The position numbers and the translations under genes are program-made. Positions 2,055 through 17,821 of a stretch of 24,867 nucleotides of DNA are shown here, in pieces. The notes beneath the pieces were generated by a model, which was not told where the DNA came from, made no database searches, and saw nothing but the letters and a program-made list of their open reading frames with translations. Origin of the DNA: a virus; IMG/VR virus record IMGVR_UViG_3300008339_000446, positions 1 to 24,867 of that record; one strand, 5' to 3'. Numbering within the stretch: position 1 is the first letter of the stretch; every line of letters starts with the position of its first letter.

Positions 2055-2978
2055 ATGAGCCAAACGATGCTCCAGCTAGTTCAGCAAGTAACCGCTGAAT
2101 TAAACCTAGCAGTCCCCACCTATGTGGCCGGAAACACAAGCCAAGACGTACAGCAAGTCCTAGCGCTTATGAACGCGCAGGGATATGAATTGCTTAAAGA
2201 GACGGACTGGCAGGGTTTAGAGTTGGAGTATCGGTTTTATACCGATGCGGTGCAGTTCACTGGCGATACGGTCAGCGATAACAGCTATAACATTATTGTT
2301 ACTGGCGACGCTACCGCCTTGAACGGTGATTATTCAATTACCGGCACCGGCATTAACCAAGACACCTACGTTTCTAGCGTCAGCTACGATTCCGGACTTA
2401 ATAAGTCCACCATCGTTATGAGCCAGCTTGCAAGCGGAACTTATACCAATGTGCAGTTTAATTTCTCGCAGACCAAGTATGACTTGCCAGCAGATTTTGA
2501 GACGATTACTGATAACACCCACTGGGATAAGACCAAACACTGGCAGATGCTTGGCCCTGAAGACGCACAGCAGTGGCAGTGGTTAAAGTCCGGTTATATC
2601 TCGACCGGCCCACGTATCCGTTGGAGGATTTTAGGTCAGCAGTTTCAGATTTGGCCACCATATAACACCAAAGAATATCTAGGCTTTGAGTATCGTTCCA
2701 AAGGCTGGGCGCGTAGTGCCGCCGGTGCTGTCAAGAACAGCTTTACAGCAGATACCGATACCACCATTTATGATGACCGCCTGCTAGTACTTGGCACAAA
2801 GCTAAAGTATTTCCAAATCAAGTCGTTTGATACGACAGCGTTGCAACAGGACTATTTCAGAGTTCTTAACGTAGTCAAAGCCAATGACAAAGGTTCTGCC
2901 AATCTATCGTTTGCGCCTTACCCAAGCAAGGTGCTTATTGGTTACGCAAACATTCCTGATACCGGTTACGGAACTTAA
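2055..2978 (+). CDS. Head-tail adaptor-like protein (P22 gp4 / T7 gp11 type)
   Basis: A 307-aa protein. The N-terminal helices (LQLVQQVTAELNL, then SQDVQQVLALMNAQGYELL) match the start of podovirus adaptor or tail-tube-A proteins, which dock below the portal. The following KETDWQGLELEYRFYT is also typical. Residues about 72-135 are an inserted Gly/Thr/Ser-rich beta segment (DATALNGDYSITGTGINQDT), after which adaptor-like sequence resumes at KYDLPADFETITDNTHW and RIRWRILGQQFQIWPP. The gene starts 1 base after the previous stop and is followed 2 bases later by the nozzle gene. In podoviruses these two proteins work together to close the head and form the short tail. Confidence 0.7.
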   Translation: MSQTMLQLVQQVTAELNLAVPTYVAGNTSQDVQQVLALMNAQGYELLKETDWQGLELEYRFYTDAVQFTGDTVSDNSYNIIVTGDATALNGDYSITGTGINQDTYVSSVSYDSGLNKSTIVMSQLASGTYTNVQFNFSQTKYDLPADFETITDNTHWDKTKHWQMLGPEDAQQWQWLKSGYISTGPRIRWRILGQQFQIWPPYNTKEYLGFEYRSKGWARSAAGAVKNSFTADTDTTIYDDRLLVLGTKLKYFQIKSFDTTALQQDYFRVLNVVKANDKGSANLSFAPYPSKVLIGYANIPDTGYGT

Positions 2979-2980
2979 AC

Positions 2981-4984
2981 ATGGCAGTACCACAACAAAG
3001 ACGAGCCTTTACTGCATCGTTGGCCTCCCCGATTGGTGGGTGGAATGCCCGCGATTCGCTTGCAGAAATGAATCCCTTGGATGCGGTTCAGCTAACAAAC
3101 TTTTACCCTACCCCGACCGATGTCACGATGCGTCGAGGCTACACCCGCAATAGTCTTATTACGACCAGCACTGGGGTTGTAACCCTGTCGACCATTACCC
3201 ATGTTGGAGTGGTGGCAACCGCAACAACCTCAACCGCGCATGGTTTGGCTACCGGTGAATTTATTTCGATTACAGGATGCACCCCATCGGACTACAACGG
3301 TGTGTATCAAGTTACCGTCTTAAACAGCACCAGCTTTACTTACACAATGGCAAGCGTGCCTGCAAGTAATGCAACGGTGGTCGGAACCTATACCATCGGA
3401 ATCACCGACGCGATTGAGACGCTGATGAATTACAGCAGTCCAACCACTCAAAAGCTGTTTGCGGCCGTCAACGGTTCGTTTTATGACTGCTCGACCAATC
3501 CTGCGACTCTTGCTTATAACGGTTCGTTTGGTAATAACCGTTGGCAACACATTAATTTTTCTACGGCTGGGGGTAACTTCCTTGTAGCCGTCAATGGTCA
3601 AGATGCCGCAATGGTTTATGACGGCACAGATTGGTATAAATTGGCTACCACAGCCACCGCAGTCAACATTACAACCATTACAGCATCAACCACTACAGCA
3701 ACGGTCACAACGGCCACTGCTCATGGTTTAGTTACGGACAACAGAGTCGTTATTTCGGGCGCGACACAGCCTCAATACAACGGTACTTTTAGTATTACGG
3801 TCACCGGAACCACGACTTTTACTTACACAATGTCCGGTTCGCCAGCTAGTCCGGCAACCGGCTCACCAATTTATACCGTTTTGGGTATTGAAGGCATTAA
3901 CAACAACCTATTTGTTCATGTTAACAGCCTACAAGAGCGGATTTACTTTGTAGAAAAGAACAGCTTAGACTTTTGGTACTTGCCGGTTAACGCTTTGGGC
4001 GGCACTGCAAAGCAATTCCCGCTTGGTTCGATTGCTCGTTCAGGTGGTTACTTGCAGGCAATGGGTACTTGGACACTTGATGCCGGTTATGGTGTTGACG
4101 ACTTGGGCGCGTTTGTCACCTCGATGGGTGAAGTTATCGTTTATAAGGGTACTGACCCTGATGACCCAAATGCTTGGGCGCTCGTTGGTGTGTGGCAAAT
4201 GGGTCAAACCTTTGCACGACGCTGTTTCTTCAAATATGCCGGTGATTTATTGCTCTTGACGCAAGACGGCCTTGTACCAATGTCCGCATCCCTGCAATCT
4301 AGCCGACTTGACCCCCGCGTAAACCTGACTGACAAGATTTTCTATGCTGTCAGCCAAGCCGCAGACTTGTATTACACTCAATTTGGCTGGCAAATCAATT
4401 ACTTTGCACCGTTCAATATGCTGATTCTCAATATTCCAGTTTCTACTGGGGTTGAGCAGTTTGTCATGCACACCATTACAAAGTCATGGGGCAGATTTAC
4501 CAATATTCAGGCTTATTGTTGGGAGGTATCAGGCCCCGAAGGTATGTTCTTTGGTTCAGACGGCTATGTCGGCAAGTTTTACGACGGATTCTCCGATGCC
4601 GGCAACAATATCGTAGCCAACGCACAACAGGCTTACTCTTACTTTGATTCAAGAGGTACGCTAAAGCGGTTCACCATGGTTCGCCCCATCCTACAAACCG
4701 ATAACACAGTGCCTAATGTGCTTTGTGGCATTTCTACCGATTTTGACACCGTTAACCTATCCAACGAGATTAGTTTTAACCCTAGTTTGGCCAGCGTTGG
4801 CATTTGGAATACCAGCACTTGGGATAACGCAAACTGGGGCGCGGGTTTAACGGTTTCTAAGGTTTGGCAGGGTGTTACCGGTATTGGTTATGCAGGCTCG
4901 GTGAACCTTTCTGTGGCATCCCAAGGGGTTGATTTCCACTGGGCTAGTACGGATTATGTGATGGAGCGTGGCGGGGTTCTGTGA
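2981..4984 (+). CDS. Tail nozzle / DNA stabilisation protein (P22 gp10 / T7 gp12 type)
   Basis: A 667-aa protein. It opens with SPIGGWNARDSLAEMNPLDA and a segment ending in MRRGY, the typical start of podovirus nozzle or packaged-DNA stabilisation proteins. The middle (about 340-520) has repeated beta-strand motifs as expected for a beta-propeller-like body (IYFVEKNSLDFWYLP, VYKGTDPDDPNAWALVG, DLLLLTQDGLVPMS). Two copies of a roughly 75-residue beta module (about residues 64-138 and 225-300) are inserted in the N-terminal half. It follows the adaptor gene directly and its stop codon overlaps the GTG start of the acetyltransferase. The family assignment rests on pattern and gene order. Confidence 0.72.
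   Translation: MAVPQQRRAFTASLASPIGGWNARDSLAEMNPLDAVQLTNFYPTPTDVTMRRGYTRNSLITTSTGVVTLSTITHVGVVATATTSTAHGLATGEFISITGCTPSDYNGVYQVTVLNSTSFTYTMASVPASNATVVGTYTIGITDAIETLMNYSSPTTQKLFAAVNGSFYDCSTNPATLAYNGSFGNNRWQHINFSTAGGNFLVAVNGQDAAMVYDGTDWYKLATTATAVNITTITASTTTATVTTATAHGLVTDNRVVISGATQPQYNGTFSITVTGTTTFTYTMSGSPASPATGSPIYTVLGIEGINNNLFVHVNSLQERIYFVEKNSLDFWYLPVNALGGTAKQFPLGSIARSGGYLQAMGTWTLDAGYGVDDLGAFVTSMGEVIVYKGTDPDDPNAWALVGVWQMGQTFARRCFFKYAGDLLLLTQDGLVPMSASLQSSRLDPRVNLTDKIFYAVSQAADLYYTQFGWQINYFAPFNMLILNIPVSTGVEQFVMHTITKSWGRFTNIQAYCWEVSGPEGMFFGSDGYVGKFYDGFSDAGNNIVANAQQAYSYFDSRGTLKRFTMVRPILQTDNTVPNVLCGISTDFDTVNLSNEISFNPSLASVGIWNTSTWDNANWGAGLTVSKVWQGVTGIGYAGSVNLSVASQGVDFHWASTDYVMERGGVL
3170..3394 (+). 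repeat. First copy of duplicated beta module in nozzle gene
   Basis: This stretch encodes residues about 64-138 of the nozzle protein. Landmarks are TAHGL near residue 86, DYNGVYQVTV, and FTYTM at 119-123. The second copy has the same landmarks with the same 37-residue spacing from AHGL to TYTM. A 15-base identical segment ending in CACAATG is at 3335-3349 here and at 3818-3832 in the other copy, which points to duplication rather than convergence. Confidence 0.7.
3653..3880 (+). repeat. Second copy of duplicated beta module in nozzle gene
   Basis: This stretch encodes residues about 225-300 of the nozzle protein, with TAHGL near 247, QYNGTFSITV, and FTYTM at 280-284. Conserved spacing and the shared 15-base segment (3818-3832) match the first copy. 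Both are Thr/Ala-rich and look like small Ig-like or beta-sandwich surface domains. Confidence 0.7.
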
Positions 4985-5421
4985 GAACGGTTACTACAGA
5001 GAACCAACGTTACTTGGGTGAATGGCTTGTTAGAATACTTAACTTTCCGTTGCCCGAAACCACGCAGTGTATTGGCCAGTTAAAAGATGGAAATTTAGTA
5101 GCAGTAGCGGGATACACAAACTTTATGCCAAAGGCTTGTGAGATTCATATTGGTAGTGTTGGTGAACATTGGGCAAGTAAAGATTTTTTGTGGGCGGTGT
5201 TTGATTACCCCTTTAATAAACTTGGTGTTAGCGTTATACTAGGGCAAATCTGTAAGGATAATGAAGATGCCTTAAGATTAAACCGACACCTTGGTTTTAA
5301 AGTTGTAGCCGAAATACCGGATGCCCACATGGAAGGCGACTTGGTAATTATGGCGATGCGTAAAGAGGACTGTCGGTGGCTCAATATCCGATGCCCTCTA
5401 AAACAGACGATGGAGGCTTGA
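4981..5421 (+). CDS. GNAT-family N-acetyltransferase
   Basis: A 146-aa protein with a GTG start overlapping the nozzle stop (GTGA). The diagnostic feature is NEDALRLNRHLGFK at residues 94-107, the acetyl-CoA-binding C-terminal motif of Gcn5-related acetyltransferases. Earlier strands carry LVAVAGYTNF (39-48) and CEIHIGSV (53-60). The acceptor substrate cannot be read from the sequence. The gene is translationally coupled to virion genes on both sides, so it is made late and may modify a virion or host protein. The family call is secure; the role is open. Confidence 0.85.
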   Translation: MRTVTTENQRYLGEWLVRILNFPLPETTQCIGQLKDGNLVAVAGYTNFMPKACEIHIGSVGEHWASKDFLWAVFDYPFNKLGVSVILGQICKDNEDALRLNRHLGFKVVAEIPDAHMEGDLVIMAMRKEDCRWLNIRCPLKQTMEA

Positions 5422-7190: not shown

Positions 7191-8441
7191 ATGGCTGATA
7201 TATTAGGAACCGTATCCCCTGAATATGCTTTAGAGCAACAACGCTTAAACCGTCAGCAAAAGATGGCTGAATTGCTTTTGGCCACCGGTTCACAACCACA
7301 GGCCGCAGGGCAAATGGTCAGTGGCCGTTATGTACCTAATTCGTTTTTCCAAAATTTACAAGCACCAGTCAATATGATGTTGGGCGCTTACATGGCTAAT
7401 CGCGGTGACAAAGCGGCTCTTGATTTAGCGCAACGGTTACGTCAAGACCAACAGCGACTTGGTAATGAGTTTTTTGAAACAATGAACCCTGCACAGACAG
7501 AGTTGGCTGGCCCAACACCTACTGGCGCACCATTAACAACGGTAAACCAACCCGATTACCGTAAAGCAATGCAAATCGCATCTAATCCAAATGCTCCAGC
7601 ATACGCAAAAACTTACATTAATGAGTTGCTTAAACCAAGAGTATTTAAAGAAGGCGAAACATTGCAGTTGCCATCGTTGGTTGGCGGTCAGGTATCGTTT
7701 AATCAAATGGGTGGCGGCGGTGTTACATTGCCGTCTGACCTAAAGTCGGTTGCTATTCGTTTAGGTTTGCCATTAGATTCAACCAAGTGGACTGACCAAC
7801 AAAGACAGTTGGCTGATGCCGCAGTTAAAGAAGAAAAGAAATTAGCAGGCACAACGGTTAATATTCCTAACTTTACGGAAAAAACCTTTGGCGGTCAGTT
7901 GGCAGAAAATCAAGCCAAACGCTTTGACACACTACAATCAACAGCAGAAAAAGCGCCTGACACTATCAGAACTGTTCAACAAAACAGAGCAATATTGCAA
8001 AGCGGTAAGTTCTTTAGCGGTTCGCCTGCTAACGTACAGCTTGAAATGGCAAAAATGGCTGATGCTTTTGGATTGGGCGGTGCAGACACAAAAACTAAGG
8101 CCGCGAACTCGCAGACCCTTATTACTAATGCCGCGTCAGCAACCTTGGATAGCATTGCCGGTTCAGGTCTTGGCGCTGGTCAAGGCTTTACTGACAAAGA
8201 TTTGCGGTTCTTGCAAGATGCTAAGTCATTCCGCATAACCATGACGGATGAAAACATCAGAAGAATATTAGATTTGCAAGAAAGAGCCGCAAGACAGGCT
8301 GTTATTAGATACAACGACCGATTAAAAACATTGCCACAGGCATCAGTGCAAGTAATGGGTCTAAGACCAATTGAATTGCCTGTTGTAAGTGTTCGCGACC
8401 AAGCCGATGCAATCTTGAATCAAAGCAATCAAGGTCAATAA
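7191..8441 (+). CDS. Probable internal virion protein
   Basis: A 416-aa protein with no recognised catalytic motif. It is largely helical and Gln/Ala-rich (ALEQQRLNRQQKMAELLLA near the start, then DLAQRLRQDQQRLGNEFFE). The C-terminal third has RILDLQERAARQAVIRYNDR. It starts 2 bases after the previous stop and is followed 2 bases later by a 667-aa ejection-type protein. In podoviruses, runs of large Ala/Gln-rich genes between the nozzle and tail-fibre genes encode the proteins ejected ahead of the DNA. The call follows that gene order. Confidence 0.65.
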   Translation: MADILGTVSPEYALEQQRLNRQQKMAELLLATGSQPQAAGQMVSGRYVPNSFFQNLQAPVNMMLGAYMANRGDKAALDLAQRLRQDQQRLGNEFFETMNPAQTELAGPTPTGAPLTTVNQPDYRKAMQIASNPNAPAYAKTYINELLKPRVFKEGETLQLPSLVGGQVSFNQMGGGGVTLPSDLKSVAIRLGLPLDSTKWTDQQRQLADAAVKEEKKLAGTTVNIPNFTEKTFGGQLAENQAKRFDTLQSTAEKAPDTIRTVQQNRAILQSGKFFSGSPANVQLEMAKMADAFGLGGADTKTKAANSQTLITNAASATLDSIAGSGLGAGQGFTDKDLRFLQDAKSFRITMTDENIRRILDLQERAARQAVIRYNDRLKTLPQASVQVMGLRPIELPVVSVRDQADAILNQSNQGQ

Positions 8442-14273: not shown

Positions 14274-14900
14274 TTAAAATGGGATGTCTGAATCTGCTGG
14301 GCCAAAATTATCATCATCTGCAATCTTGGGTTCTGCGTCACGCTTTTGTTTGCCGCGCCACTCGGATGATTCTGCAATCTTTTCTTTGTAATACTTTGGC
14401 AAGGTATCGTACTTGGCTTGGTCAAACTCCTGCAACCAAAAGTGCGTAACTGAGTTAATACCCTGTGGCAGGCTATTACGCAGGGCTGTTGGCACCGCGC
14501 TAATACCGGACACATTCGCGTACTTGCCGTCCTCCGAATGCACGACCGAGAGCATACAGAACTTGCCCAATAGGTTACGCACATCAAAGTTTTTTCTGTC
14601 CTCGGTAGTCATCTTTTTACCTGACCATGATTCAAGGTCTTTACGCAGGGTCGACTGGTCGCCAAGGCTTACGGTGTAACGCTTACTAACGATTAATGGC
14701 TTGCCATCATCCGTTAGTAATTTTTCGCCATCATCGGACTCACCATGCAATTCCCAAGTAAATACCATCTTGTGCATGATTTTGGTCTCACCTTTCCAAT
14801 CTACGGACTGGTGGCCAAGGTCAATACAGGAGTAAAGCCTTGCAAGGTGGTTGCCTGCGGGCGCGATTTTAAAGTCTCTGCTTGTATCTGAAATAATCAT
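14274..14900 (-). CDS. Single-stranded DNA-binding protein-like
   Basis: A 208-aa protein from the ATG preceded by GAGGAAAG; a TTG four codons upstream is less likely. The start RDFKIAPAGNHLARLYSCID is typical of phage SSB-like proteins, an OB-fold being expected from residue 10 to about 150. The C-terminal region is disordered and acidic (AEPKIADDDNFGPADSDIPF) and ends in DSDIPF, the tip used by SSBs to recruit partner proteins. It stands two genes before the exonuclease in the same operon. The call rests on this tail and context; the OB-fold was not modelled. Confidence 0.78.
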   Translation of the reverse strand: MIISDTSRDFKIAPAGNHLARLYSCIDLGHQSVDWKGETKIMHKMVFTWELHGESDDGEKLLTDDGKPLIVSKRYTVSLGDQSTLRKDLESWSGKKMTTEDRKNFDVRNLLGKFCMLSVVHSEDGKYANVSGISAVPTALRNSLPQGINSVTHFWLQEFDQAKYDTLPKYYKEKIAESSEWRGKQKRDAEPKIADDDNFGPADSDIPF

Positions 14901-14908
14901 GGCTTTCC

Positions 14909-15292
14909 TCAAAATGGTTCAAATTCTGTTTGTTTGCTGTACCGGTGAACAATAATGCTGTTGTTTTCGCGGTCAATGGTGGTGGAATAACTGCCTTTGC
15001 CCCAATGGGTTGACATATAGGCACACAGCGAACTGCGTAGCGTTTCCATGTCAAAGTCTTTAATTGGCACCTCGCCCACCGTATCGTCGGTCATATTCTT
15101 AATAAACGGCAAGTAGTGGTTACGCAGGGTTCCCATCGGATAATGCAGTGGCCCACGCTTTTTGCGCTTGTTATACAAGACCTCAAGCGCGCCATGCTTG
15201 TTGCCGTCGCTGTCCACGATGGCATACAGCAAATTGCAGGATTTGAGCATACTGATGGCTCGTTGCAGGGTTATCTTTTCTACGTTATTCAT
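14909..15292 (-). CDS. Unknown early protein
   Basis: A 127-aa protein with a strong ribosome site (GGAGGTG) and an ATGA overlap with the upstream gene. Visible features are an N-terminal helix (VEKITLQRAISMLKSCNLLY), an alternating middle (LHYPMGTLRNHYLPFIKNM) and KGSYSTTIDRENNSIIVHRY near the end. It has no membrane segment or catalytic motif I can name. It is encoded directly upstream of the SSB-like gene, its stop nearly touching that start, so it is likely co-expressed in DNA metabolism. Function unassigned. Confidence 0.75.
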   Translation of the reverse strand: MNNVEKITLQRAISMLKSCNLLYAIVDSDGNKHGALEVLYNKRKKRGPLHYPMGTLRNHYLPFIKNMTDDTVGEVPIKDFDMETLRSSLCAYMSTHWGKGSYSTTIDRENNSIIVHRYSKQTEFEPF

Positions 15293-15498
15293 TTGACACC
15301 TCCATAAGGGTTAAGGTCAGCAAACACTTCGCGCAGGAAGTTACGTTGCCGGTCTATCGGGGCAAGCCCACAACCATAACGCAGGAGGTCAATTTGCTCT
15401 TTAGATAAGTCTGTGCCGCCTTCTAGCACATCAAAGATGCGTTCAAGTTCACCTTGAAGCTGGAGTAAATCATTGGTTTGCGATTCTATTTCACTCAT
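15289..15498 (-). CDS. Small early protein, first gene of the left operon
   Basis: A 69-aa protein. I choose the ATG at 15498 because AAAGGA stands just before it; a reading ten codons longer would start without a ribosome site. It is acidic and helical in its first half (SEIESQTNDLLQLQGELERI), then DRQRNFLREVFADLNPYGG. No family is recognised. It is the promoter-proximal gene of the minus-strand early operon, with the operator-bearing promoter at 15541-15569 about 45 bases upstream. Confidence 0.7.
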   Translation of the reverse strand: MSEIESQTNDLLQLQGELERIFDVLEGGTDLSKEQIDLLRYGCGLAPIDRQRNFLREVFADLNPYGGVK

Positions 15499-15540
15499 AC
15501 GAGTTCCTTTCAAATATTCACCGGCCAATCCGGTAACTCA

Positions 15541-15569
15541 ATGTTAACCTATCTTAAATCTAAATGCAA
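15541..15569 (-). promoter_or_regulatory. Promoter for left early operon
   Basis: On the minus strand: -35 TTGCAT (15569-15564), 17-bp spacer, -10 TAACAT (15546-15541). The -35 box is identical to the two other TTGCAT promoters. Unlike those, the operator is shifted about 4 bp downstream and overlaps the -10 box. It is divergent from the cro-like promoter about 20 bp away. Confidence 0.6.
15544..15557. promoter_or_regulatory. Operator copy 2
   Basis: The core TTAAC-CTAT-CTTAA matches TTAAG-N4-CTTAA with one mismatch. It overlaps the -10 box and part of the spacer of the left early promoter, so binding would repress that operon. Confidence 0.55.
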
Positions 15570-15584
15570 ACTTTATTTGTAGTA

Positions 15585-15613
15585 TTGTGTTGATAGGCAT
15601 TCCCTGTTAAGAT
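15585..15613 (+). promoter_or_regulatory. Promoter for cro-like gene, leaderless
   Basis: -35 TTGTGT (15585-15590), 17-bp spacer, -10 TAAGAT (15608-15613). The expected start of transcription, seven bases after the -10 box, is 15620, the A of the ATG. No ribosome site precedes that ATG. Together these indicate a leaderless mRNA, as known for lambda cI made from its maintenance promoter. Confidence 0.6.
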
Positions 15614-15620
15614 ACCCTAA
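15607..15620. promoter_or_regulatory. Operator copy 3, on the start codon
   Basis: The core TTAAG-ATAC-CCTAA has one mismatch to the consensus. It covers the -10 box and the first base of the start codon of the Cro-like gene, the right place for autorepression. Confidence 0.55.
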
Positions 15621-15850
15621 TGAATCCAACAGCCATTATTAATATCTTGGGCGGCGCCACCAAGGTCGCTAAACTCTGCGGAGTTTCAGTGCCGGCGGTC
15701 TCTATGTGGCAAAAAAGCGATATTCCGCGCGATAAATTAATATTCTTGGCCGCAACACTGGAGCGCGAAACAAACGGTTTGATTACCCGCAAGACCTTGT
15801 TTCCAACGACTTATGAGGTAATTTGGCCGGAGTTGCACAACAAGCAGTAA
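15620..15850 (+). CDS. Cro/YdaS-like helix-turn-helix regulator
   Basis: A 76-aa protein. Residues about 12-34 form a helix-turn-helix (ATKVAKLCGVSVPAVSMWQK) followed by SDIPRDKLIFLAATLE, the layout of small Cro and YdaS-type regulators. The rest (TNGLITRKTLFPTTYEVIW) is short, leaving only a dimerisation extension. It is the only obvious transcription factor in the window. It is encoded divergently from the left early operon and immediately before the candidate ncRNA. A palindromic operator overlaps its own -10 box and start codon. YdaS proteins are sometimes listed as antitoxins, but no toxin partner adjoins it. Confidence 0.82.
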   Translation: MNPTAIINILGGATKVAKLCGVSVPAVSMWQKSDIPRDKLIFLAATLERETNGLITRKTLFPTTYEVIWPELHNKQ

Positions 15851-15862
15851 ATTGGTTATACT
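15833..15862 (+). promoter_or_regulatory. Promoter for candidate ncRNA
   Basis: -35 TTGCAC (15833-15838), 18-bp spacer, -10 TATACT (15857-15862), at the very end of the cro-like gene. The predicted start is near 15869, just before the first structured segment. Both boxes are close to consensus. No operator copy overlaps it, unlike the other promoters here. Confidence 0.6.
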
Positions 15863-15868
15863 GTGTGG

Positions 15869-15994
15869 GCAGATTAGACCCTGTTTAGTTTTAATTCCAC
15901 ATCAGACCCTTTAGGGTTGCTTTGAGCGTTTTGGAAAGTTCGTGGAGTGCTTTCTTAAGCGGGTCTAACTTAGAGCAACCTTAAGGGGTTTTTC
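15869..15994 (+). ncRNA. Candidate ~125-nt structured RNA
   Basis: This RNA has its own promoter and ends in an intrinsic terminator. Near its 5' end TTAGACCC (15874-15881) is perfectly complementary to GGGTCTAA (15961-15968), which lies in the loop of the terminal 15-bp stem. Both helices together give an H-type pseudoknot; otherwise they compete. Two smaller pairings are TCCAC/GTGGA (15896-15900/15942-15946) and GAAAG/CTTTC (15934-15938/15950-15954), plus CCCTTTAGGG (15907-15916) within the terminator arm. No ORF with a ribosome site lies in it. It could be a regulatory RNA or a terminator/antiterminator leader for the downstream genes. I recognise no known RNA family. Confidence 0.6.
15907..15993 (+). 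terminator. Terminator closing the ncRNA
   Basis: A 15-bp stem (15907-15921 with 15974-15988, two G-U wobbles) encloses 52 bases and is followed by five T residues. The long loop is unusual for a plain terminator and holds the strand that pairs with the 5' end of the RNA. Confidence 0.6.
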
Positions 15995-16053
15995 TATTTC
16001 TGCCGTACTTCTCGCGTTAGAAATGGGGTTAAATCGCCCGCTGGAAAGAAAAG

Positions 16054-16152
16054 ATGGGCTGGTTTACACCTAACAGCAAGCCCCGCGAACTTGAGTGGGT
16101 ATCGCACAAGACGGACAGGACAACGGTGATTGACAACCTGACCATCGAATGA
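16054..16152 (+). CDS. Possible 32-aa ORF between ncRNA and early promoter
   Basis: A short frame begins with MGWFTPNSKPRELEW and ends VIDNLTIE. A purine-rich ribosome site, GGAAAG, lies 5 bases before the ATG. Codon choice resembles the neighbouring genes. No family is recognised. Read-through past the ncRNA terminator would be needed for expression, unless it has its own promoter, which I do not see. It may be a real peptide regulated by the upstream RNA, or chance. Confidence 0.38.
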   Translation: MGWFTPNSKPRELEWVSHKTDRTTVIDNLTIE

Positions 16153-16269
16153 ACACTACCTTCGGGAGCATTAGTTCAAGATAAACTTCTTGAATGGATG
16201 GGGTGCTATCACCATTGGGGACTTATTGCAAAAAAACAACAATAAGGGTAAATACCTACAAAATAAATA
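16153..16269 (+). other. Noncoding stretch with two inverted repeats
   Basis: No gene is seen here. There is a 7-bp hairpin TTCAAGA/TCTTGAA (16175-16181/16188-16194) with a 6-base loop. A second 7-bp repeat CTTATTG/CAATAAG (16222-16228/16240-16246) flanks an A-rich loop. The second repeat touches the upstream element of the 16270 promoter. Neither has a T-run. The stretch 15851-16340 as a whole holds the ncRNA, one doubtful ORF, these repeats and the promoter. Confidence 0.4.
16245..16257 (+). promoter_or_regulatory. Upstream element AGGGTAAATACCT
   Basis: This is the same 13-bp element, with one difference, as that found upstream of the minus-strand promoter at 12926-12954. It lies 12 bp before the -35 box, followed by an A/T-rich UP-like stretch. 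Probably a second regulatory site. Confidence 0.5.
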
Positions 16270-16298
16270 TTGCATTATTAAGATTTCTTAACTATACT
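16270..16298 (+). promoter_or_regulatory. Promoter for the right early operon
   Basis: -35 TTGCAT (16270-16275), 17-bp spacer, -10 TATACT (16293-16298). The predicted start is about 16305, giving a 35-base leader before the ATG at 16341. It is a near copy of the 12926-12954 promoter, including the operator in the spacer and the upstream element. Confidence 0.8.
16278..16291. promoter_or_regulatory. Operator copy 4, perfect core
   Basis: The core TTAAG-ATTT-CTTAA is a perfect 5-bp inverted repeat in the spacer of the right early promoter. It is placed as in copy 1, so both promoters should respond to the same protein. Confidence 0.7.
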
Positions 16299-16340
16299 GT
16301 AGTTACTGCATCGGGCAGTGAGATAGAAAAGGAGCAACAA

Positions 16341-17075: not shown

Positions 17076-17447
17076 ATGAACGCATACGAATTAGCAGATG
17101 AATTTGATTGGATGACTGAAGAAAAGATTGTTCAATGGTGCAACGATGTAGTTAATATGCTACGACAACAAGCAGACCGCATAGCGGAGTTGGAAGACAG
17201 GCTATCAATGTATGAGATTAAAGACCTTGATAGAGGAATTATTGGCAGAACAAAAGATTATGTAATACATGATTTAGTTCACAGAACCACACCACAAATA
17301 AAAGAGTTAAGTGATGAGGAAATAGATTTGAAATGGTGGATTTCGTCTTTTGAGCATTTAAAAGCGCTGGGTGGCGGCATCAGTGATGAGATGGAAACAA
17401 AGCTAAAAGATATGAAAGAAAGATTAAAGAAAGCGAGTGAGAAATGA
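17076..17447 (+). CDS. Unknown early protein with coiled coil
   Basis: A 123-aa protein. Its start MNAYELADEFDWMTEEKIVQ followed by MLRQQADRIAELEDRLSMYE is a pattern seen in numerous phage early proteins: NAYELAD then LRQQADRIAELE. The second half is helical and charged (ISDEMETKLKDMKERLKKAS). Codon use is more AT-rich than in the structural genes. It overlaps the replication-type gene by 4 bases (ATGA). The function is unknown. Confidence 0.72.
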   Translation: MNAYELADEFDWMTEEKIVQWCNDVVNMLRQQADRIAELEDRLSMYEIKDLDRGIIGRTKDYVIHDLVHRTTPQIKELSDEEIDLKWWISSFEHLKALGGGISDEMETKLKDMKERLKKASEK

Positions 17448-17821
17448 CATTTGAGGCTTTCTATTCCCTGTACCCGCGTAAGATTGGCAAGCGTGCGGCA
17501 GAAAAGTCGTGGAACCGGTTAACTAAGGATGAACAGCAGGAGGCTTTGGCCGCGTTGCCTAACCACCTTGCATACTGGAAGTTTAAGCAAACCGAAAAGG
17601 ACTACATTTGCCACCCAGCCACATGGTTAAACCAAGGTCGCTGGGAGGACGAGTTGGAGTTTGAAAAGGCCAAAAAGCCGGAATTGCCTTGGTATAGCAC
17701 CAACGAACTAACGCTTAAAAAGGCCGCCGAGGTTGGTGTCAACCCTTACGCTGGTGAGGATTGGCCACAGCTACGCGCCCGCATCAGCGCACAAATGAAA
17801 CGGTTGGAAGAGCAAATGTGA
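17444..17821 (+). CDS. Replication protein, helicase-loader/DnaT-like
   Basis: A 125-aa protein. FEAFYSLYPRKIGKRAAEKS with W near 23 and KDYICHPATWLNQGRWEDEL (about 52-71) form the signature of the C-terminal region of phage replication initiators and helicase loaders. In longer relatives this follows a DNA-binding domain; here only this region is present. It would recruit the host replicative helicase. It lies in the right early operon with overlaps on both sides. No phage helicase or polymerase is in the window, consistent with use of host machinery. Confidence 0.7.
   Translation: MTFEAFYSLYPRKIGKRAAEKSWNRLTKDEQQEALAALPNHLAYWKFKQTEKDYICHPATWLNQGRWEDELEFEKAKKPELPWYSTNELTLKKAAEVGVNPYAGEDWPQLRARISAQMKRLEEQM

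Follow-up and report, generated by a model that had tools for sequence, protein, structure and literature searches.

The window analysed here, i.e. the whole stretch of 24,867 nucleotides, covers positions 1–24,867 of the viral record IMGVR_UViG_3300008339_000446, described as a freshwater-type phage, in which genes for head, lysis and replication were recognised. As judged from the sequence, it encodes a discrete phage RNA of about 125 nt, hereafter RNA1, with a promoter of its own where a Cro-like gene ends, its own terminator hairpin and two predicted pseudoknots. The features of the locus are the following:

15620–15850, + strand: Cro/YdaS-like repressor gene (Pfam PF14549 P22_Cro, E 3e-9; PF15943 YdaS, E 2e-7; phrog_35, transcriptional repressor)
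15833–15862, + strand: predicted RNA1 promoter, TTGCAC (15833–15838), 18-nt spacer, TATACT (15857–15862) (from the sequence; −10 box kept in relatives)
15869–15993, + strand: RNA1, ~125-nt double-pseudoknot RNA (5′ end placed from the promoter; relatives, alignment A1, covariance model R1)
15869–15884, + strand: P1, 5′ hairpin, 15869–15872 with 15881–15884, U-turn-like UNR loop (100% of A1 cells paired)
15874–15881, + strand: PK1 5′ strand, TTAGACCC, in the P1 loop (covariation with 15961–15968)
15894–15900, + strand: PK2 5′ strand, ATTCCAC, in the linker; partner in the apical loop (own-versus-permuted complement test)
15905–15926, + strand: P3a, outer terminator stem, 5′ strand; partner 15969–15990 (folding, alignment A1)
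15927–15939, + strand: P3b, inner stem, 5′ strand; partner 15949–15961 (compensatory changes at 9 of 13 pairs)
15942–15948, + strand: PK2 3′ strand, GTGGAGT, in the apical loop (own-versus-permuted complement test)
15961–15968, + strand: PK1 3′ strand, GGGTCTAA, in the bulge between P3b and P3a (covariation with the PK1 5′ strand)
15969–15999, + strand: intrinsic terminator formed by the P3a 3′ strand and the U-rich tail TTTTTCTATTT (all or almost all of the 59 sequences agree in the columns TTTTT.TATTTC, in part by selection because the pattern belonged to the search)
16001–16235, + strand: RNA2 type A, directly 3′ of the RNA1 terminator (23-sequence alignment A2)
17444–17821, + strand: replication-initiation-like gene of the downstream operon (phrog_270, E 3e-18)

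The P22_Cro and YdaS matches agree with the original prediction, made from the letters of the window, which had placed the segment directly 3′ of a cro-like gene; promoter, RNA1, RNA2, small genes and the replication-initiation-like gene follow in this order. Near 15530–15620 this rightward gene diverges from a leftward operon that includes, among others, an exonuclease-like gene. Next to the Cro-like gene, at 14274–15620, no repressor of the CI type was recognised. The divergent operon begins with genes of unknown function, followed by the exonuclease-like gene. In an Acinetobacter phage with a related Cro, cII directly follows cro, with no room for RNA1.

The view of this segment as a noncoding, compact and bounded phage RNA is supported by the absence of any ORF across RNA1 in the window and by its fold, far more stable than that of shuffled sequences (z −5.9; hairpin alone, z −6.4); the covariance model R1 scores it at 129 bits. 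Both predicted promoter boxes and their 18-bp spacing are present. Taken in this window alone, such a promoter is at chance level (2 found versus 1.6 expected); in 97 distinct upstream sequences, however, the −10 box (TATACT or TATAAT) lies mostly 12–13 nt 5′ of the start of the RNA1 model, with a mean of 3.4 promoter mismatches out of 12, against 4.5 in shuffles. In many contigs the genes 5′ of RNA1 belong, besides repressors, to several other families, each time with this promoter, and RNA1 with its promoter and terminator thus behaves as a unit. At the 3′ end, as in intrinsically terminated small RNAs, a G+C-closed hairpin with a stem of 22–23 bp is followed by a U-run, which is the T-run noticed originally.

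The relatives of RNA1 were collected by two routes. A scan of IMG/VR with the Cro-like protein gave 41 loci, most of which, where enough downstream sequence was available, have an RNA1-like element 3′ of the gene, and a DNA pattern search of the same database gave at least 120 stretches; together, the Cro-like loci and the pattern matches listed comprise at least 112 distinct relatives, from which 59 representative sequences were aligned (A1). Because part of the outer stem and the T-run were prescribed by the pattern, their conservation is partly due to selection; P1, PK1, PK2 and most of P3b were left free.

The covariation in A1 is the main evidence for the predicted fold. P1, P3a and P3b are paired in 94–100% of the cells, and the whole-structure covariation score is 0.379, compared with 0.158 ± 0.006 for shuffled and at most 0.076 for slid versions. 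By itself, a single 8-bp complement within 125 nt is weak evidence (a rough estimate is about 0.1 per sequence); the perfect complement originally noticed between the 5′ segment and a downstream stretch is indeed present, and covariation keeps its strands paired. All seven counted PK1 pairs (15874–15880 with 15962–15968) show compensated changes, 98.5% of the cells are paired, and no pair changed on one side only in the 59 sequences. Thus, the covariation analysis, in which relatives without covariation or with both helices broken were to count against the original prediction, did not refute it. Two of its details had to be corrected: the terminal stem, proposed to be of 15 bp, extends over 22–23 bp with five G-U pairs and is continued by the inner stem, and the downstream complement, though correctly identified, does not lie in the loop of that stem but in the 3′ bulge between outer and inner stems. 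Since PK1 has its 3′ strand in this bulge and uses no strand of the terminator, the helices are compatible and are predicted to form a kissing pseudoknot. Of the two arrangements originally considered, only the pseudoknot is therefore retained; a terminator/antiterminator switch of the two named helices was rejected because they use different strands and PK1 is kept together with both stems.

A second predicted pseudoknot, PK2, overlooked in the original prediction, is as clear as PK1 on this comparative evidence. It joins the linker (15894–15900) to the apical loop (15942–15948) and was tested without alignment because the length of this region varies. The best complement between linker and loop has a mean of 7.4 for own partners and of 4.7 ± 0.14 for permuted ones, with none of 5000 permutations reaching 5.3, and, by the complement score, at least six pairs are present in 90% of the sequences. 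An alternative pairing between the 5′ leader and the linker gave a small excess (5.03 versus 4.59), open to effects of relatedness, and is not claimed.

RNA1 is present in a single copy per locus (100 matches at 100 loci). One 44-kb contig, IMGVR_UViG_3300047557_000594, contains two copies (L077, 279–412, and L087, 8261–8394) with different PK1 alleles, GTGACAT and GTGATGT, which may mean either that one phage has both copies or that the assembly is chimeric. When 84,980 prokaryote genomes were scanned once with a pattern, three matches were obtained, one of them a real RNA1 copy; the other two (L163 and L164) were discarded as chance matches, neither being found by the RNA1 model at E 0.01. 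The real copy (L165) lies on a 3.5-kb contig, JAURIG010000133.1, binned as a Bacteroidota MAG, which carries an RNA1 of family T1 and an RNA2 and is probably of phage or viral origin. Among isolate phages no nucleotide match to RNA1 was found. However, a divergent RNA1 of the same plan is present in one complete podovirus genome, MW202674.1, at 4979–5114 of the record, with PK1 strands TTGGCGGA and TCCGCCAA, as well as a type-A RNA2. Small hypothetical proteins that the annotation of this genome places on the opposite strand, overlapping its RNA1 and RNA2 or next to them (L166, about 2914–3214), are probably spurious.

The same plan was found in two further families, T2 (AAGGYTTCACATGRATAC) and T3 (CCGTTTWARTCTGTGTCTTG), with stem sequences unrelated to those of RNA1 and located mostly 3′ of YdaS-like genes, in which the inner 3′ side of the terminator hairpin contains a complement of the loop of a 5′ hairpin; a few of the pattern matches in these families are clearly chance coding sequence. 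Examples of loop and partner are:

L200: GTGAGAA and TTCTCAC
L203: GTAGAAA and TTTCTAC
L170: TTGGTCGGG and CCCGACCAG
L173: TTGGTGG and CCACCAA

The pairing between linker and loop is seen mainly in T2, where at several loci a DUF1376/O-like replication gene starts about 12 nt 3′ of the end of the T-run. The contig of the T3 example L200 also carries an int-alpA RNA (RF02996) at 7307–7373.

The sequence of PK1 varies considerably, with 28 combinations of its strands among the 112 sequences in the matches listed. In sequence pairs differing at eight positions or fewer, PK1 changed at 0.085 per column and pair in each strand, compared with 0.019 in P3a, 0.011 in P3b and 0.058 in the linker, i.e. 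at a per-site rate 4–8 times that of the P3 helices, and equally in both strands. Four sequence pairs differ in PK1 only; in L024 and L025, whose flanks are 1.8% different, there are four PK1 changes and the rest of RNA1 is identical. Moreover, all loci, with identical RNA1s included, provided 21 independent phage pairs whose flanks differ by no more than 8%. Their median difference is 3.5% in the flanks and 16% in RNA1, and in 10 of the 21 RNA1 is the most divergent of the segments compared (Wilcoxon p 0.002). The distribution of the RNA1 difference is two-peaked, with 6 pairs identical and many above 15%, and the most conserved neighbour is the first 150 nt of RNA2 (median 0.7%). From these comparisons, the variation looks like the replacement of whole alleles between conserved neighbours, combined with compensated change in PK1. 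The initial impression of a PK1 hypervariable against all else had to be moderated: PK1 is fast compared with the other helices, but it outpaces the flanks in some comparisons and not in all, its rate being close to that of some of them, and diversifying selection on PK1 is therefore only suggested.

Directly 3′ of the terminator lies a second structured RNA, RNA2. Type A, present in the window, has 34 predicted pairs in the 23 sequences of A2, of which 19 are compensated, and gave no match in Rfam, the Betaproteobacteria-1 model (RF02932) included. In many relatives the RF02932 RNA is found instead directly 3′ of RNA1. It is a different RNA in the RNA2 place, and the RF02932 model did not match RNA1 itself at 15869–15993. 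Matches to this model were located as follows:

L002, 3385–3506
L003, 3385–3506
L012, 2317–2438
L041, 3245–3367
L202, 2057–2182
L210, 9953–10077

At L041 the TATACT box is directly followed by the RF02932 RNA, with no RNA1 between them. In L045, L049, L074 and their relatives, the RNA2 place is taken by at least three further sequence types, which begin with CCACCCGAAACGACAGGG, CTAGCCCGTACTCATTGG and GGAAGGGAAAGAGAAAACACCAG right after the RNA1 terminator. The occurrence of one RNA1 family with different RNA2 types indicates that the RNA1–RNA2 pair is modular. RNA1 is an uncatalogued structured RNA, common in environmental phages, whose covariation is exceptionally clear and which has 3′ of it another structured RNA that exists in several alternative types; the RNA1 loci provide a genomic context for the Betaproteobacteria-1 RNA of Rfam.

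The comparison with known families bears out the statement, made originally, that no known RNA family is recognisable. The covariance models of all 4227 families of Rfam 15 gave no match in the window at gathering scores, and a permissive scan of 15800–16340 gave only chance-level hits (best E 0.24). The scan of the 4227 families also gave no match to C4 antisense RNAs, whose families we take to be counted among them, nor to the GOLLD and ROOL models, ornate RNAs of several hundred nucleotides, compared with the ~125 nt of RNA1. No description of RNA1 was found in the literature searched.

We tentatively propose, with somewhat less than even confidence, that RNA1 may be a self-recognising kissing riboregulator, specific to its allele, that controls read-through into the early/replication operon, possibly of the IsrK or plasmid copy-control kind and a determinant of superinfection or incompatibility. 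The short RNA1 would accumulate, and its kissing strands would act either in cis or, in trans, on newly made read-through RNA from the same allele, setting the passage of the polymerase past the terminator or the folding of the read-through RNA. As only matching alleles pair, these strands would act as an identity code and, as at the incompatibility loci of plasmids and in the immunity regions of phages, their diversification and the swapping of whole alleles would be favoured. In the Gifsy-1 prophage (PMC4825925), the short terminated RNA IsrK targets, in trans, the transcript made by read-through of its own terminator, and its layout, with a phage promoter, a short terminated RNA and phage genes downstream, is like that of RNA1. 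In contrast, IsrK adjoins anti-repressor and antiterminator genes and not cro and replication genes, and the portion of that description compared contains no double pseudoknot of the RNA1 kind; the likeness proposed here is one of layout. The plasmid copy-control RNAs, R1 CopA/CopT and the IncI-complex RNAI with the repZ pseudoknot (PMC10798244, PMC10724649), share with RNA1 the U-turn loops, the kissing pairs, a pseudoknot in the leader of a replication gene and a specificity residing in fast-changing loops. Their partner is, however, a counter-transcribed antisense RNA, whereas RNA1 carries both strands in one molecule and no antisense gene was found, a promoter-like site on the − strand at 15581–15610 being at chance level. 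The U-turn (YUNR-like) recognition loop of kissing antisense and copy-control RNAs is found in RNA1, where the P1 loop reads [U/G/C]UNR in 111 of 112 cases, a strict Y being limited to some of the alleles; according to Franch 1999, as cited in PMC10798244, this motif speeds the kissing of antisense RNAs.

From the UNR loop, the place between Cro-like and replication genes, the terminator and the IsrK precedent, we infer that the riboregulator is the best-supported reading. Also counted in its favour are the PK1 covariation, the PK2 partners, the promoter and terminator kept in unrelated upstream contexts, the single RNA1 per locus, the fast change of PK1, the allele differences between close phages and the T2 terminator before a replication gene. 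Against it, we counted the non-repressor genes 5′ of RNA1 in many contigs; moreover, the rapid change of PK1 could be neutral drift plus recombination. Further PK1 targets showed no significant excess in neighbouring phage DNA (same strand, 46 versus 45.8 expected; complement, 67 versus 56.6, p 0.10). A more far-reaching form, which we consider unlikely, is that RNA1 may be an identity system made of RNA only, in which the kissing strands form an allelic code and replication-gene expression would be silenced by any phage with the same allele, whether resident or co-infecting. This would give homoimmunity or incompatibility that needs no repressor protein, and alleles would be exchanged under selection between near-identical phages. 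If the allele-specific model is true, RNA1 would be an RNA counterpart of immunity and incompatibility loci in phages, readable from the sequence.

The main rival to the riboregulator is an architectural or protein-binding role. RNA1 might be a stable trans-acting structured RNA or scaffold, monomeric or homo-oligomeric, that binds a host or phage protein, its pseudoknots being purely architectural and its alleles swapped because change is driven by the host partner or by a defence system; we regard this as somewhat unlikely. The discrete RNA with promoter and terminator and the highly constrained stems agree with it, and the near-absence of RNA1 from cellular genomes points to a phage function. 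A precedent is offered by GOLLD and ROOL (PMC12286853), likewise structured phage RNAs with covarying kissing contacts, which can assemble via intermolecular kissing loops; they are several times longer than RNA1 and unrelated to it by Rfam search, and their contacts are partly intermolecular by cryo-EM. As this work shows, the PK1 covariation by itself cannot tell pairing in cis from pairing in trans, i.e. intramolecular from intermolecular. On the other hand, a protein-binding scaffold is expected to keep the letters of its loops, which in RNA1 are the fast part, and the fixed place 5′ of early/replication genes suggests relevance in cis.

A role entirely in cis, which seems to us distinctly unlikely, would make RNA1 a put/nut-like element whose nascent fold, bound by the polymerase or a phage factor, decides on the passage of its own terminator. 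In the cro-nutR-tR1-O-P region of lambda, nutR-tR1 with a terminator lies between cro and the replication genes. RNA1 has the same position 3′ of a Cro-like gene, with its terminator 5′ of the replication genes, but differs from nutR-tR1 in having its own promoter at the 5′ end and a double pseudoknot, and hypervariable loops are unexpected of a factor-binding site. It is far less probable still that RNA1 is the ordinary terminator of the Cro-like gene with an incidental 5′ pairing and no role beyond termination. Although a good terminator hairpin directly 3′ of a gene speaks for this explanation, covariation disfavours it: a bare terminator needs neither its own promoter nor two covarying pseudoknots in more than 100 phages, and the same layout recurs in two further families of unrelated sequence.
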